NCBI RefSeq assembly: GCF_015493435.1
Contig: NZ_WGDD01000029.1
Coordinates: 62,001 to 126,000 of the forward strand
Origin: Sulfurovum sp.
Lineage (GTDB): Bacteria; Campylobacterota; Campylobacteria; Campylobacterales; Sulfurovaceae
Reading direction: 5' to 3'
Length of the DNA stretch: 64,000 nt
The position numbers and the translations under genes are program-made. The notes under the pieces were generated by a model, which was not told the DNA's origin, searched no databases, and worked only from the letters and a program-made list of their open reading frames with translations. Of the stretch, positions 7,759 through 14,111 are shown one piece after another (position 1 is the stretch's first letter; every line of letters starts with the position of its first letter).

Positions 7759-8880
7759 TTATAACTTTAATATTTCTTGTTTCATGAGCTGAGGCTCTAC
7801 CAGTAATCTGTTTTTCAAATCGATCACCCTGGCACAGTCACTCTTTGCCAGGCGGACATAGAGTGACACGACAATCCTGTCTCCTTTTTTCAGGGGAGGC
7901 ATATCGTAAATCAGTGTTTGCTTTTCTTTGCTGTCAAGGTTGTGTACACTGCCTTGCGTAGCCGTTGCCGGAATAACGATCTTTTTTCCGTTTTTTTTGA
8001 AACTGTAGGCAAAGTATCCCTGGGCATCTTCTTTCGGTGATTTCCTGTAGTTTTTCCAAATACATTTTCCGTCTCTCAAGACTTCTATTTTCAGAAATTT
8101 TGCCCGTGCTGGCTGGATGATGAGCGGGTGCCCCATTTTATTGGCAAGTACAACAGTGAGTTTTCGGTGTTTTACAGAAATATTGATATCAACCCCTGTT
8201 TTTCTGAATGCTTTGTCATGAATGCCGAGAAATTTGTGGCTGGCATGGTGCCCTCTGGCCCTTTTGTCCATTTTCTCCGCCCCGCCCTCCGTTTCCGGCA
8301 TATGGCATTTGATACATCCCAGACTGTTCTGATTTTCTTTCATTGCCCGGAAAATAGTGACATTGTTGTCATTGAGTTTATGGGAGTGACACCCCATACA
8401 GACTTTTTTTGCATACACAGGGTTGGAAGCCGAAGAATGCTTATCGCTTTCGTCGGGATGATTCAGTCTTCCGTACAGTGTGGGTTTGTAATGTTCTGCC
8501 TGTCTCGCTTTGGTATTGATATTGAATTTGTGTGCTTTTTTAACATAGGCGATCGTATGACAAAAATAACAGCTTATCGCATCTGTCTGGGTCACATTGT
8601 TTTTGTCCGGCCTTGCCTTGCCTGACAGCAGTGCTTTCAAATTGTCAGCCATCGGCATATGGCAGGTGGCACATTCATACTTTTTCCTGCTGGCGGCATT
8701 AGCGACTTTCCTGTGCAGCTCATCGTTGAAATAACTTTTGGAATGCATGGAACCTTGGTATTCATTGTAAATACCTTCATGACACTCTTTACAGGAATGG
8801 TTGTCGAGGTATTTTGCCTCAAGCGTTGTAAAAAGGAGGGGAAACAGAAAAAAGAGTTGCAGATAAAATAAACGGTTCAT
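7759..8880 (-). CDS. Periplasmic five-heme cytochrome c
   Basis: A 373-residue exported multiheme cytochrome. After the signal peptide (to about residue 22) five CXXCH sites are visible at C30-H34, C70-H74, C104-H108, C161-H165 and C189-H193, followed by a heme-free beta-rich domain (about 225-373). The arrangement recalls cytochrome c554-type proteins. The ATG at 8880 is chosen because it opens a signal peptide and has AAAGAGA before it; a start at 9003 would overlap the nirS 3' end and add a non-signal leader. It follows nirS by 91 bases, so a role in electron delivery to, or product handling from, nitrite reduction is plausible but unproven. Confidence 0.82.
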   Translation of the reverse strand: MNRLFYLQLFFLFPLLFTTLEAKYLDNHSCKECHEGIYNEYQGSMHSKSYFNDELHRKVANAASRKKYECATCHMPMADNLKALLSGKARPDKNNVTQTDAISCYFCHTIAYVKKAHKFNINTKARQAEHYKPTLYGRLNHPDESDKHSSASNPVYAKKVCMGCHSHKLNDNNVTIFRAMKENQNSLGCIKCHMPETEGGAEKMDKRARGHHASHKFLGIHDKAFRKTGVDINISVKHRKLTVVLANKMGHPLIIQPARAKFLKIEVLRDGKCIWKNYRKSPKEDAQGYFAYSFKKNGKKIVIPATATQGSVHNLDSKEKQTLIYDMPPLKKGDRIVVSLYVRLAKSDCARVIDLKNRLLVEPQLMKQEILKL

Positions 8881-8971: not shown

Positions 8972-10714
8972 TTAAGCACCGGGGATATGCTGTCTGTGCT
9001 CAACAGAATAAGTAAATGTAGGTGTTGTCAAGTTTTCAATATACTTAACAAATTTACCAGTCTCAGATTCATAAATTCCAATACGTCCGGTTGTCCACTC
9101 AGAGATCATTGTCCACTTGCCGTGGTTCGCAGGCTCAGCGTGAAGCAGTCTCGGCTGTACAGGATGCTTCACTGCTTTACCAATGTGATCAGGTACCGGC
9201 ATAATTTTTTCTTTGCCGAATTTTTTCTCATTGACAGGTACTCTTTTATGCTGTGTAGCATCCCATGTCTGGAGTACTTTTCCTGTCTTCGCATCGATCA
9301 GTTTACCCTCTTTTTTACCGACTTCAATAATACGGTCAGTCTCAAGTGTCTGCTTGTTGATAAGGTAGACTTTATTGTAATTCTTCGGTTTGCCGAGAAC
9401 ACAGTCAGACCAGATCCAAGGTGTATCTTCCCCGGTTCCTACAAACAGACCGCCACCGGCAGTTTTAACCTTTTTGATAACCTTCCAGCCCGGAGAATCC
9501 CAGATAACAACCGAACCAAAGTTCATAGAGTTCGTTGCATTCAGCTGTTTGTCAAGTTTTTTGTTGAACCAGCTTGAACCCTGTCCAGGGTGCGGTTTGG
9601 ACTTTTCACCGGTATAGACTTTGGCTGCCAGTTTCTTTGTCTTGAAGTCAACGATACCCATCAGGTCAGACCCCTGGGAAGCGATCATAAAGTATCTACC
9701 GAAATTTTCGCCTTTGTTTTCATTTTCGAAACAGTCATGCAGAATCTTACCGATATTCGGTACATCGCCCACAATAGGGAAGTCAGGCTTGCTGTAATCA
9801 ATAATATACACACGTCCTGCATCTTTCAGTGCCATAGCAAAATATGGTCCGTACGGTGTATCGGCAATACCTGCAACTCTTGACGGTCCGATCTGTCCGT
9901 CTATATCAATCACACGGCTGGTGTCATACACTTTGAGCGGCTCAAGTGTATGTGCATCACACAATACTGCACCACCCGGGTTGTAGTTACCGGCAAGGAT
10001 GTATTTACCATCAGGAGAAACTGCAAGACCGCGTGATTCCTGACCTACCTGTACCGATGCCAGTGCCGGCTGTCCTGGAGCAGCAATGTCAAACATTGTC
10101 AATTTTCCTGAACGTGAAATAGAATACGCATATCTTGGTTCAAATTTATTGGTCACGGTTACGTGTACCGCAAATCCGGCTTTATGGCGAGACAGTACTT
10201 TACCTGTTGTTGAGTCAATAAAGTCAACCAGGGAAGCATCTCTTTCTGTGGCAAATGTAATATCTTTTACATTCTTGACAGCGCCGCCATCATATTTGAG
10301 TTTACCGTCTGCCGATACAGGGTATACTTTTGCCAAACCCTCTCTGTCAGCCAGCTTTGTCCATGACTTATGCACCTGATCAAAAGAAAGCGTCAGTTCA
10401 ACTGTATTTTTCCAGTCCATCAGCCAATCAACCATACCCGTAGCATCATCTTTGCTGAATTTTGCTTTCCAGGAAGGCATTGCTGTATTTTCTCTACCGT
10501 TGAGAATTGTTTCCGCAAGGAATTCACGGTTTTTCTTTTTCAGTGCTTTTGGTCTGAGGTCTGACCCGACACCACCCTGGTGAATCGGCCCGTGACAGCC
10601 CTGACACTCTTTTTCGTACATTTTGGCAAAGTCCATCTTCGATGTCCCCGCTATTGCCAGTGTTGCTACAAGACTTGTTGCAGCGGCTAACCCTAAAATT
10701 CTATTTAGTTTCAT
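8972..10714 (-). CDS. nirS: Cytochrome cd1 nitrite reductase (NO-forming)
   Basis: Reduces nitrite to nitric oxide in the periplasm. The 580-residue precursor has a signal peptide (to about A22), a cytochrome c domain with CQGCH (37-41) and a likely axial Met in AMPSW, then an eight-bladed heme d1 propeller. The d1 proximal His is H184 (FAVHVTV) and the two active-site histidines are H326 (ILHDC) and H375 (PHPGQG), all at positions expected for NirS. An insertion near 460-520 makes the C-terminal part longer than in Pseudomonas NirS. All catalytic histidines being present favours NirS over the paralogue NirN. It lies in the nor-nir array downstream of norB. Confidence 0.9.
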   Translation of the reverse strand: MKLNRILGLAAATSLVATLAIAGTSKMDFAKMYEKECQGCHGPIHQGGVGSDLRPKALKKKNREFLAETILNGRENTAMPSWKAKFSKDDATGMVDWLMDWKNTVELTLSFDQVHKSWTKLADREGLAKVYPVSADGKLKYDGGAVKNVKDITFATERDASLVDFIDSTTGKVLSRHKAGFAVHVTVTNKFEPRYAYSISRSGKLTMFDIAAPGQPALASVQVGQESRGLAVSPDGKYILAGNYNPGGAVLCDAHTLEPLKVYDTSRVIDIDGQIGPSRVAGIADTPYGPYFAMALKDAGRVYIIDYSKPDFPIVGDVPNIGKILHDCFENENKGENFGRYFMIASQGSDLMGIVDFKTKKLAAKVYTGEKSKPHPGQGSSWFNKKLDKQLNATNSMNFGSVVIWDSPGWKVIKKVKTAGGGLFVGTGEDTPWIWSDCVLGKPKNYNKVYLINKQTLETDRIIEVGKKEGKLIDAKTGKVLQTWDATQHKRVPVNEKKFGKEKIMPVPDHIGKAVKHPVQPRLLHAEPANHGKWTMISEWTTGRIGIYESETGKFVKYIENLTTPTFTYSVEHRQHIPGA

Positions 10715-10761: not shown

Positions 10762-10791
10762 GGCAGGTACAGACACGGGGTCTGTCCTGCC
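10762..10791. other. Strong intercistronic hairpin upstream of nirS
   Basis: GGCAGGTACAGAC and GTCTGTCCTGCC form a 12-bp stem with one bulged base and a loop of about 5 bases. It lies between the 54-aa membrane protein gene and nirS. No T-run follows on the minus strand, so it looks less like a simple terminator than an mRNA-processing or stability element that could set nirS levels apart from norCB. Confidence 0.5.
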
Positions 10792-10815: not shown

Positions 10816-10980
10816 TTACTGCTCTTTCTGCAATCTTTTCTTTTCACTGAAATAAATCCAGAACATTGGCAATACAATAAGTGTATGCAAGAAAATAGTT
10901 AATGTCATCGGACCCTGGTTGAGCCATCCGAAGAAACTCGGTACCACATCTGTAAATGGCGTAAAGAGTTCAAAGTTCAT
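10816..10980 (-). CDS. 54-residue membrane protein between norB and nirS
   Basis: A short gene with a good ribosome site (AGGAG) before the ATG at 10980. The 54-residue product begins MNFELFTPFTDVVPSFFG, has one membrane helix (about 24-43, MTLTIFLHTLIVLPMFWIYF) and ends in a charged tail (SEKKRLQKEQ). I do not recognise a family. Its position 50 bases after norB and before nirS suggests a small subunit or assembly factor for NO or nitrite reductase, by analogy with the single-helix subunits of heme-copper oxidases. Confidence 0.7.
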   Translation of the reverse strand: MNFELFTPFTDVVPSFFGWLNQGPMTLTIFLHTLIVLPMFWIYFSEKKRLQKEQ

Positions 10981-11030
10981 TTTTTCTCCTTTAATTAAAT
11001 ATCATGCGGAAGAGCAAGCCCTCCTCGCAT

Positions 11031-12482
11031 TTATTCTGCGGCAGCCTGCGCTGCTTTAGCGTGTTTTCCGATAGTCAAAAGATCCCATACAAGGTAAATG
11101 AACCCGACAAAGGTCACAACACCCATCATGGCTCTCCATACCTGTGCCTGGATATACCATGGCAGATCCTGTGCTGCAAAGAAGGCAGTCCATCCGCCGC
11201 CAAGCTCAGCTCTTTCAACAAGTACCTGCTCGTACCCTGCGATAGTCAGGGCAACCGTCATTCCCAGTACACCGAATACGATGAGGAAAATAGCCATTTT
11301 TGACTTGAATGTCGATGTAAGCTTTTTAACCCCATAGGCGTACTGCACACCCAAATACATCATCCCGATAAGGATTGTTGCATAGGCACCGAAGAATGCC
11401 AGGTGACCGTGTGCCGCTGTAAACTGTGTACCATGCGTATAAATGTTTACCTGAGGCAGGGTATGGAAGAATCCCCATATACCGGCTCCAAGGAAGTTTC
11501 CAAATGCGTTGGTCACGATCCATGCCATAGCCGGACCGTTGTTCATTACTGCACCTGGATGACCTTCGGCTTTTGCTTTTCCTTGTTCTTTACCCCAGTC
11601 ATAGAGGACGTGAACGAACATCGCTACCAATGGTACCGGTTCCAATGCTGAGAATAGCGCACCGATCTCCCACCAGTACTCAGGTGTACCGATCCAGAAG
11701 TAGTGGTGACCCAGACCGAGAATACCTGAACCAAAAAGCATCAATACTTCGATCCACAGCCACATCTCGACAATTTCCCGTTTTGCACCGATGATCTTGA
11801 TAAGTGCATAGGCGGCAAGGGCACCGACAAATACTTCCCAGGTTGCTTCAACCCACAGGTGTATGACCCACCACCACCAGAATTGATCCATAGAGATATT
11901 GTCCGTAAAGAACATACCTGCCAGATACAAACCTGCAAGGGCGAACAAGTCTGCAATAAGTACAGTCATGATACCTGTCTGCTTACCTTTCATATAGGTA
12001 GCGAACACGTTCCAGTAGAAAGTCAGAACAACCACAACAATACCGATATCGGCCCATCTTGGTGCTTCAAGGTATTCTCTACCTTCGTTGATCAGCCAGA
12101 TCGATGTTTCTGTTCCTGAACCTACCTGAATAAAGATAAATACCAGTACAACGACTGTGACTGCGGCAGTGAGTACCCAGAAAGCCAGCTTTCCAAGCCC
12201 GATACCGACGGTTTCGACCCCTGTTTCATCAGGCAGCATAAAATAAACCGACCCGATCATCGCGTAAAGCATCCAGACAACCAGTGCATTGATGTGTACC
12301 ATTCTCGCTACCGAGAAATCGAACAGTTCAAACAAGAATCCCGGTACGATGAACTGGATAGCTGCGATGAGTCCCATCAAAAGCTGTGCACCGAAGAGTA
12401 TAAGTGCAACTCTAAAGTACATCATCCCCAATTCTTTGGATTTGTCTCCTCTAAATTCATTCGTTTTAATACTAGTGAGCAT
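11031..12482 (-). CDS. norB: Nitric oxide reductase, large subunit (cNOR)
   Basis: Membrane heme-copper-family enzyme reducing NO to N2O. The 483-residue protein has 12 expected helices. Heme b ligands are H63 and H349-region histidines (H358 and H360 in AAHGHLAFFG), FeB ligands are H208, H259 and H260, and the characteristic glutamates E212, E216 and E281 are present. Numbering is nearly the same as in Pseudomonas NorB. The ATG at 12482 is preferred over 12509 because AGGAG stands 8 bases before it. It overlaps the end of norC by 11 bases. The pairing with NorC marks the cytochrome c-dependent type rather than qNOR. Confidence 0.95.
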   Translation of the reverse strand: MLTSIKTNEFRGDKSKELGMMYFRVALILFGAQLLMGLIAAIQFIVPGFLFELFDFSVARMVHINALVVWMLYAMIGSVYFMLPDETGVETVGIGLGKLAFWVLTAAVTVVVLVFIFIQVGSGTETSIWLINEGREYLEAPRWADIGIVVVVLTFYWNVFATYMKGKQTGIMTVLIADLFALAGLYLAGMFFTDNISMDQFWWWWVIHLWVEATWEVFVGALAAYALIKIIGAKREIVEMWLWIEVLMLFGSGILGLGHHYFWIGTPEYWWEIGALFSALEPVPLVAMFVHVLYDWGKEQGKAKAEGHPGAVMNNGPAMAWIVTNAFGNFLGAGIWGFFHTLPQVNIYTHGTQFTAAHGHLAFFGAYATILIGMMYLGVQYAYGVKKLTSTFKSKMAIFLIVFGVLGMTVALTIAGYEQVLVERAELGGGWTAFFAAQDLPWYIQAQVWRAMMGVVTFVGFIYLVWDLLTIGKHAKAAQAAAE

Positions 12483-13143
12483 TTGTGTCTCCTGCTTTGA
12501 ATTGAGCAACTGTTTTCGAGAAGTTTCTCGGGAAACCGTTGGTGTCGATACTACTCATATGCTTGAGGAACGCTACCAGTCCTTTTGCTTCTTCTGCAGT
12601 AATACCGAGATTTGGCATCATACGTGCATGAGTAGGGTACTGTGACGGATGCTGCAAGAATTCAGCCATAGCTTCTTCTACAGTATTTTTTCCTGTCATA
12701 CCCTGCATAGGTCCGCCCTTCTGCCATGCCGGATCGAGCCATGCTTTGGTAAGATCCGGAGCATAATAGGCACCATTTCCCAAAAGTGTATGACAATCCA
12801 TACAGTTCTTTGCCTGTTCTGTCAGCTTTCCGAGACGCAGCAGTGCTTCAGCATCTTTAGGGCTCCACTCTTTACCGAAGAATAGCTGTTTTTCACCGAT
12901 GACCGGTACTTCATGCCCTCTTTTCTTGTTCATCTTGTAATCAATATGATAATTGATAACCGTTGCGGCCGGCACTCTTTTGTCAACCCCGTTCTTCAAA
13001 TCTGCATTCGTACCCATTGTGATCTGTCCAATGGTATCGAATGAAAGCCAGATAAGCAGAATGGTTGCAAACCCTGTTACCCAGGCTGCTGAACGACGCC
13101 AAAATTGTATATCTGTCCAAACAGAAACTTTTTTGTTTGCCAT
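12472..13143 (-). CDS. norC: Nitric oxide reductase, cytochrome c subunit
   Basis: Membrane-anchored monoheme cytochrome c that passes electrons to NorB. The 223 residues begin with a short cytoplasmic end and one helix (about 19-36), then a periplasmic domain with CMDCH (114-118) and the likely axial Met in ARMMPNLG. The usual NorC is about 150 residues; here about 65 extra residues separate the helix from the heme domain. It lies between a small membrane protein gene and norB. Confidence 0.93.
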   Translation of the reverse strand: MANKKVSVWTDIQFWRRSAAWVTGFATILLIWLSFDTIGQITMGTNADLKNGVDKRVPAATVINYHIDYKMNKKRGHEVPVIGEKQLFFGKEWSPKDAEALLRLGKLTEQAKNCMDCHTLLGNGAYYAPDLTKAWLDPAWQKGGPMQGMTGKNTVEEAMAEFLQHPSQYPTHARMMPNLGITAEEAKGLVAFLKHMSSIDTNGFPRNFSKTVAQFKAGDTNAH

Positions 13144-13154
13144 GTATCCTCCTT

Positions 13155-13505
13155 TTATTTTGTATCCTGCATGCTTTCGTCATTGTCTTCGTAACGCTCA
13201 TCCGCTGCACTTATCAGATAAAAATACAAATGCGGAACAAAGAGATACGCGATCATCGTAACCATCAGCACTTTCATCGTAAAGTGGTTACTGTGGATCA
13301 ACATTGCGAAATCATACAGGAAGTAAGTTTGTAATGCCCAAAATAGATATCCTACAGGCATCCACTTTTTGGAAAAGTATCCCATTTTGGCAAGAGTGAT
13401 GATTGCTGCATACCCTACACCGAAAACAAGTACCAGTGTCGACTCTATAAAAATCGGCAAGAATTGGTCTAACGCGATCTCAGGTCGAACGATTAACTGT
13501 TCCAT
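13155..13505 (-). CDS. Small three-helix membrane protein, first gene of the nor-nir array
   Basis: The 116-residue protein has three hydrophobic segments (about 18-40, 50-68 and 76-100) and an acidic C-terminus (AADERYEDNDESMQDTK). No family is recognised. It starts 11 bases before norC and is the first gene downstream of an FNR-type box, so it is probably part of NO reductase expression or assembly. A distant relation to NorE/NorF-type accessory proteins is possible but not visible in the sequence. Confidence 0.7.
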   Translation of the reverse strand: MEQLIVRPEIALDQFLPIFIESTLVLVFGVGYAAIITLAKMGYFSKKWMPVGYLFWALQTYFLYDFAMLIHSNHFTMKVLMVTMIAYLFVPHLYFYLISAADERYEDNDESMQDTK

Positions 13506-13706: not shown

Positions 13707-14111
13707 CTACTTGACGATGCACCGTGCAGAGAAAAAAGGCCGAACATAATTGGGTGAGACAAAATTATCGTCTTTCAAAGACCATTCGTTCGCTTTCTCC
13801 ACATAAACCACCTGTGCTACTTTGCGCTGCATCCTGCTTTCGCACAAGATCGTTTTTCCGTTCTCAAAAGCTGCCTGAACCGTTTTCATTCTATGCGTAG
13901 TAAGCTTGTAGTGTGCCCCTATCAGCACGGCAAGGACGACAGAAACCCAGAAAAGTCCTTTTTTCCAAGCCCCTTTTGGCATGAACGGCCGCGTGGAAAC
14001 AAACAGTGTAACAAGGAGAATAATCCCGCCGATAATCAGATAGGCGCCTTCAAGATAAAAAAAGTTTTTCATTGCAAAAATATCCATTTCATTATTTATT
14101 TTGACAATCAT
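13707..14111 (-). CDS. Small membrane protein near the nor-nir region
   Basis: A protein of up to 134 residues with two hydrophobic segments (about 20-40 and 51-66), followed by a soluble, probably periplasmic part with two cysteines. The start is uncertain: ATGs at 14111, 14087 and 14072 are all possible and none has a strong ribosome site. No family is recognised. A perfect FNR consensus box lies 25 bp upstream of the first ATG. Confidence 0.6.
   Translation of the reverse strand: MIVKINNEMDIFAMKNFFYLEGAYLIIGGIILLVTLFVSTRPFMPKGAWKKGLFWVSVVLAVLIGAHYKLTTHRMKTVQAAFENGKTILCESRMQRKVAQVVYVEKANEWSLKDDNFVSPNYVRPFFSARCIVK

Follow-up and report, generated by a model that had tools for sequence, protein, structure and literature searches.

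Nitric oxide reductases and their small subunits

Denitrification at vents, seeps and redoxclines owes much to Campylobacterota (Sulfurimonas, Sulfurovum), whose N2O is made by NOR. Among the haem-copper enzymes, the cbb3 oxidases, the oxidase family nearest to NOR, have a small one-helix subunit, CcoQ/FixQ (PF05545). In proteobacterial nor operons, small membrane proteins are encoded together with NOR as well, namely NorF (COX4_pro, PF03626) and NorE, which are COX4/COX3-like proteins. In the B-family oxidases of the ba3 type, a one-helix subunit IIa accompanies a subunit II with one helix but not a subunit II with two (PMC3128077).

As regards cNOR itself, the subunits in the solved structures found here are NorB and NorC alone. 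In Thermus thermophilus, the enzyme is heterotrimeric, i.e. NorCBH with NorH as third subunit (PMC5748679, citing Bricio 2014). Besides the subunits, maturation proteins have been described: in Paracoccus, NorQ and NorD are essential for the insertion of FeB into cNOR (PMC9976466, PMC13036017), and qNOR needs neither of them (PMC9976466).

The nor/nir cassette of Sulfurovum sp.

In the window (the whole 64,000-nucleotide stretch of Sulfurovum DNA that was analysed), the genes follow one another on the minus strand in the order of a gene for a 116-aa membrane protein (13155-13505), norC (12472-13143), norB (11031-12485), a 54-aa gene (10816-10980) and nirS (8972-10714). Pfam assigns COX1 to norB, cytochrome c to norC and Cytochrom_D1 to nirS, the latter encoding the cytochrome cd1 nitrite reductase. 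The closest solved relatives of the catalytic subunit NorB are 3o0r and 4xyd, and alignment with them identifies the enzyme as a cNOR, with the FeB His/Glu motif, the haem histidines and the haem c site of NorC in place; in NorB of this kind, hereafter type 1 (about 65% or more identical to the window NorB among 397 Campylobacterota genomes), the FeB-binding histidines and glutamate as well as the catalytic motifs are intact. NorC, the cytochrome c subunit, has 223 aa and, from alignment and helix prediction, one N-terminal helix.

The 54-aa gene, named norX here for convenience, reads from 10980 down to 10816 on the minus strand (54 codons plus stop, with an ATG start), co-directional with norB and nirS on either side, and its product is MNFELFTPFTDVVPSFFGWLNQGPMTLTIFLHTLIVLPMFWIYFSEKKRLQKEQ. 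The first-pass annotation had pointed out at this place an unrecognised single-helix protein with a good ribosome site inside the NO/nitrite reductase array. Its location is as claimed, the ribosome-binding site AAGGAG lies at 10986-10991 (minus strand) directly 5' of the ATG, and the protein is indeed unrecognised as far as Pfam and NCBIfam, where it has no significant family, and the papers searched are concerned.

A conserved gene under purifying selection

Close copies of the 54-aa gene occur in many of the 60 near relatives searched, and a profile search of the 397 Campylobacterota genomes returned 73 strong matches to its product (E about 5e-24 or lower). Across 84,980 species genomes, 251 loci encode a relative, the best 80 of which belong to Campylobacterota, except two labelled just 'bacterium', and mostly to Sulfurimonas and Sulfurovum, together with Nitratifractor and one Arcobacter. 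Sampling outside the Campylobacterota thus consists of plasmids and of these best 80 of the 251 loci from one genome scan; no relatives of the protein were present in the plasmid and viral collections searched.

The chance that such a short frame is a mere accident, or a by-product of DNA conserved for an RNA element or an overlapping signal, has to be considered in the first place, especially as a hairpin is located after it. Each of the 176 homologous frames begins with ATG, and a clear ribosome site of its own precedes 172 of them; together the frames encode 140 distinct proteins of 47-59 aa, which align almost without gaps. Where synonymous sites are unsaturated, the median dN/dS is 0.12, and the entropies of codon positions 1, 2 and 3 (0.58, 0.33 and 1.31, respectively) make the third position the most variable. 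The +1 frame is closed in each of the 152 distinct DNA rows; taken together, the alternative forward frames are broken in all rows or in most of them. In the face of the low dN/dS, the third-position variability, the closed alternative frames and the ribosome site kept in nearly all relatives, an accidental or by-product frame is hardly credible: the 54-aa frame is a real gene under strong purifying selection.

A constant companion of one kind of NOR

Among the 397 Campylobacterota genomes, type 1 NorB is found in 74, a canonical cNOR in 15 (NorB 37-42% identical to the window NorB) and a qNOR-like protein of about 750 aa in 11 (31-34% identical to the window NorB), with type 1 and canonical cNOR together in five. 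Of the 74 type-1 genomes, 73 contain the 54-aa gene, which no other genome of the 397 has at a meaningful score; in the sole type-1 genome lacking it, the contig stops one base past the matched end of norB. None was found in the genomes with a canonical cNOR or a qNOR alone, nor was there any convincing copy in the canonical cNOR and qNOR loci searched. The frame is therefore kept in related nor loci, on which the first-pass annotation had made its proposal depend.

The arrangement is as regular as the distribution. In 175 of the 177 inspected loci norB stands directly before the 54-aa gene, the remaining two loci beginning at a contig edge, and the order norH-like gene, norC, norB and 54-aa gene is fixed across the inspected loci. 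In the genomes G009 and G032, which have two type-1 NOR cassettes each, every cassette includes its own 54-aa gene. In short, the 54-aa protein always accompanies one kind of NOR in Campylobacterota.

The downstream neighbour behaves otherwise: nirS usually follows the cassette, but several loci lack it or have divergent copies instead, and the 54-aa gene is retained without nirS at the next position or with divergent nirS-like genes (L063, L096, L107, L173, L174 and L199). As the gene is constant with norB while nirS varies, its link is with NOR rather than with NirS. This bears on the suggestion that the protein connects NOR to NirS or to an electron donor, by docking or NO hand-over, and is dispensable for NOR itself. 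Such a role would suit a gene that usually lies between norB and nirS and a protein that probably exposes its N-terminal part to the periplasm, the compartment of NirS; it is nonetheless improbable, considering that the gene persists in loci with no nirS, or a divergent one, at the next position, whereas no locus dispenses with norB, and that the co-occurrence is with NorB.

The Thermus branch and the place of NorH

In the plasmid collection, the best match to the window NorB is that of T. thermophilus with 53% identity, the others reaching at most 42% among the matches listed. The Thermus cluster consists of norC, norB, a gene for a 98-aa hypothetical protein and nirS, with neither NorQ nor NorD within, and the 98-aa protein occupies the position of NorH, directly after norB. 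In a maximum-likelihood tree of NorB, to be read with caution as long branches meet in it, type 1 and Thermus are joined (95/95) apart from the canonical cNORs and norCBQD enzymes (100/100). The NorC proteins of Thermus and of the window are 56% identical and have in common a long insert before the haem domain, which canonical NorC is without.

Within this branch, the 54-aa protein resembles NorH in several respects, both being small membrane proteins encoded directly downstream of norB, before nirS, in a norCB operon whose NOR has no NorQD. This shared operon place invites the reading that the 54-aa protein is itself a relative of NorH, the known third subunit. Yet NorH is a 98-aa protein with several helices and has no similarity to the 54-aa protein by BLASTP (E 1.2) or profile comparison (hhalign probability 0.1%). 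It matches instead the 116-aa protein encoded upstream of norC, none of the 1000 hydropathy-keeping shuffles scoring as well, and kinship of the 54-aa protein with NorH is thus very improbable.

The match between the 116-aa protein and NorH has an hhalign E of 1.3e-4 over 76 columns, and NorH is what the 116-aa profile matches best in a six-frame translation of the Thermus locus. Its score of 12.5 bits exceeds the best of 1000 full shuffles (11.2) and the best of 1000 hydropathy-keeping ones (8.5), i.e. none of the 2000 shuffles scores as well. The gene is the first of the cassette wherever the contig extends far enough, and a confident four-helix AlphaFold2 model (pLDDT 86) was obtained for the protein, for which nothing significant was found in Pfam or NCBIfam. 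On this moderate evidence, to which operon membership adds, the 116-aa protein is probably a relative of Thermus NorH.

The slot of the third subunit being taken by this NorH-like protein, the 54-aa protein becomes a candidate fourth component. The first-pass annotation had suggested from its position a third NOR subunit or an assembly factor; the tie to NOR stands, and the rank of third subunit passes to the 116-aa protein.

NOR without NorQ and NorD

In the 397 Campylobacterota genomes, NorQ and NorD each occur in exactly the 15 genomes with a canonical cNOR, so that most Campylobacterota cNORs are NorQD-free; neither protein was found in the 69 genomes whose sole cNOR is type 1, the window's own genome included. 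In the canonical loci used as control, norC and norB are followed by adjacent genes for NorQ and NorD. Within Campylobacterota, canonical loci are those designated L213-L220, L222 and L224.

The FeB ligands are kept in type-1 NorB, yet these 69 genomes have to dispense with NorQ and NorD, and it is conceivable that the 54-aa protein, along with the NorH-like protein, replaces them as an assembly factor, helping to load FeB and then leaving. Conserved polar residues, namely T26, T28, H32, Y43 and E46, could handle the metal. Against this, the NOR of the same branch in Thermus has a NorQD-less cluster and apparently no 54-aa gene on the 440-kb plasmid that carries it, so the gene does not seem to be generally required for NorQD-free loading. 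Besides, qNOR is likewise independent of NorQD (PMC9976466), and a one-helix protein is more usual as a stable subunit than as a chaperone. An assembly factor that departs after loading is therefore rather unlikely, albeit the most serious of the rival explanations. A subunit is favoured, a choice that sequence alone does not settle.

Topology and conserved residues of the 54-aa protein

As the first-pass annotation had it, the 54-aa protein has one strong predicted transmembrane segment (residues 26-44). Across its relatives, the mean number of lysines and arginines is 0.04 before the helix and 3.9 after it, and with almost no positive charge on one side and about four on the other, the N-terminus should be outside. 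Two cysteines are found in 19 of the 140 sequences, at aligned positions 9 and 14 (a few shifted by one) and never singly, a constant pairing that fits a periplasmic disulfide.

P24, L27, L31, H32, P38, M39, Y43, E46 and K47 are invariant in the 140 sequences and, judging from the alignment, exceed what a bare membrane anchor would need. A one-sided stripe of conservation along the helix is weakly supported (p about 0.04-0.05). The structure predicted without an alignment comprises helices at residues 7-20 and 24-53, with a mean pLDDT of 83. Fold searches with the models of the 54-aa and 116-aa proteins gave nothing useful; for the former, Foldseek returned no match, a weak test given how hard a single helix is to match, and PDB chains searched by sequence yielded no match except designed proteins at E 0.02.

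A putative one-helix subunit beside NorC

Altogether, the preferred reading makes the 54-aa protein a small structural subunit of the Campylobacterota cNOR that has no NorQD, standing beside NorC and completing NorCB, which we consider fairly likely; this NOR probably has, then, a small subunit not yet named. In this model, the helix of about residues 24-46 would span the membrane, leaving the N-terminus periplasmic and the basic C-terminus (EKKRL) cytoplasmic, and the short second helix (7-20) would lie at the periplasmic surface. The transmembrane helix would pack against NorB and the one anchor helix of NorC, taking the place of an extra N-terminal helix present in the Thermus NorC chain. 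The protein would thereby stabilise or complete NorCB, and perhaps also hold the enzyme in a state able to take up FeB without NorQ and NorD. The analysis establishes the real gene, its fixed cassette, its exclusive association with this NOR and the predicted topology of the product; its physical presence in the complex, its place beside NorC and its effect on stability or metal loading are what we infer.

Thermus NorC has two predicted N-terminal helices, the extra one running in the same predicted direction as the 54-aa helix, and the Thermus plasmid with the cluster apparently has no 54-aa gene. The alignment shows one anchor region in the sampled type-1 NorC as against these two helices in Thermus NorC, a comparison that has Thermus as its sole outside lineage and in which a simple hydropathy cut-off calls the single NorC helix in just 21 of 112. 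That the 54-aa protein might be akin in sequence to the N-terminus of Thermus NorC was considered and discarded, about 16-17% of shuffles scoring as well, and the proposed equivalence consequently relies on topology, helix count and one outside lineage.

Together with this extra helix, subunit IIa of the ba3-type oxidases, which stands in for a helix that subunit II lacks, provides the precedent for proposing the 54-aa protein as a IIa-like structural helix beside NorC. Both are one-helix proteins associated with enzymes of the haem-copper superfamily, supernumerary in the case of IIa; in both cases the gene is short, easily overlooked and located in the operon. The CuA subunit that IIa accompanies has a single helix (PMC3128077), as the cytochrome subunit NorC probably does. 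No sequence or fold match places the 54-aa protein in the IIa family itself. The differences are that IIa has 34-41 aa and another sequence, and that its gene lies upstream of that of subunit II (PMC3128077); moreover, the placement of IIa is proven by structure, whereas that of the 54-aa protein is inferred. CcoQ/FixQ is comparable as a small subunit with one helix, but identity with it was rejected, no PF05545 match being obtained up to E 0.1-1 in the 19 members tested. With NorE and NorF, the 54-aa protein shares the small size, the membrane location and the association with NOR; relatedness to NorF/COX4_pro was likewise rejected, as there was no match.

A more extensive proposal can be put forward tentatively, its chances standing a little short of even: a four-protein cNOR made of the NorH-like protein, NorC, NorB and the one-helix subunit, with NorQD-free iron assembly, in which the enzyme could not be stable or metal-loaded unless the one-helix subunit were there. 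If the 54-aa protein is indeed a subunit, the main NOR of Campylobacterota would have two membrane components absent from Pfam and NCBIfam, and a heterologously expressed type-1 NOR would be incomplete without the 54-aa gene. The occurrence of NorQD-dependent and NorQD-free cNORs within one phylum also offers a natural experiment on FeB entry.

Flanking genes and signals

Between the 54-aa gene and nirS, at 10762-10791 on the minus strand, there is a stable RNA hairpin that has no U tail (z-score -2.97) and may be a processing or attenuation element separating nor from nir expression. Upstream of the nor cassette, Sulfurovum-type loci encode a conserved membrane protein that reaches 134 aa (13707-14111 in the window, on the minus strand); it has no clear family, Pfam DUF308 appearing at just E 0.014. 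In many type-1 cassettes, divergent nirS-like genes, 20-30% identical to the window NirS at the protein level, replace the usual nirS, and one or two of them follow the cassette in L178, L179, L182, L184, L185, L193 and L194. Downstream of nirS, a multihaem cytochrome (cytochrome c554/c7-like) is encoded at 7759-8880 on the minus strand, an arrangement found after nirS in many relatives.
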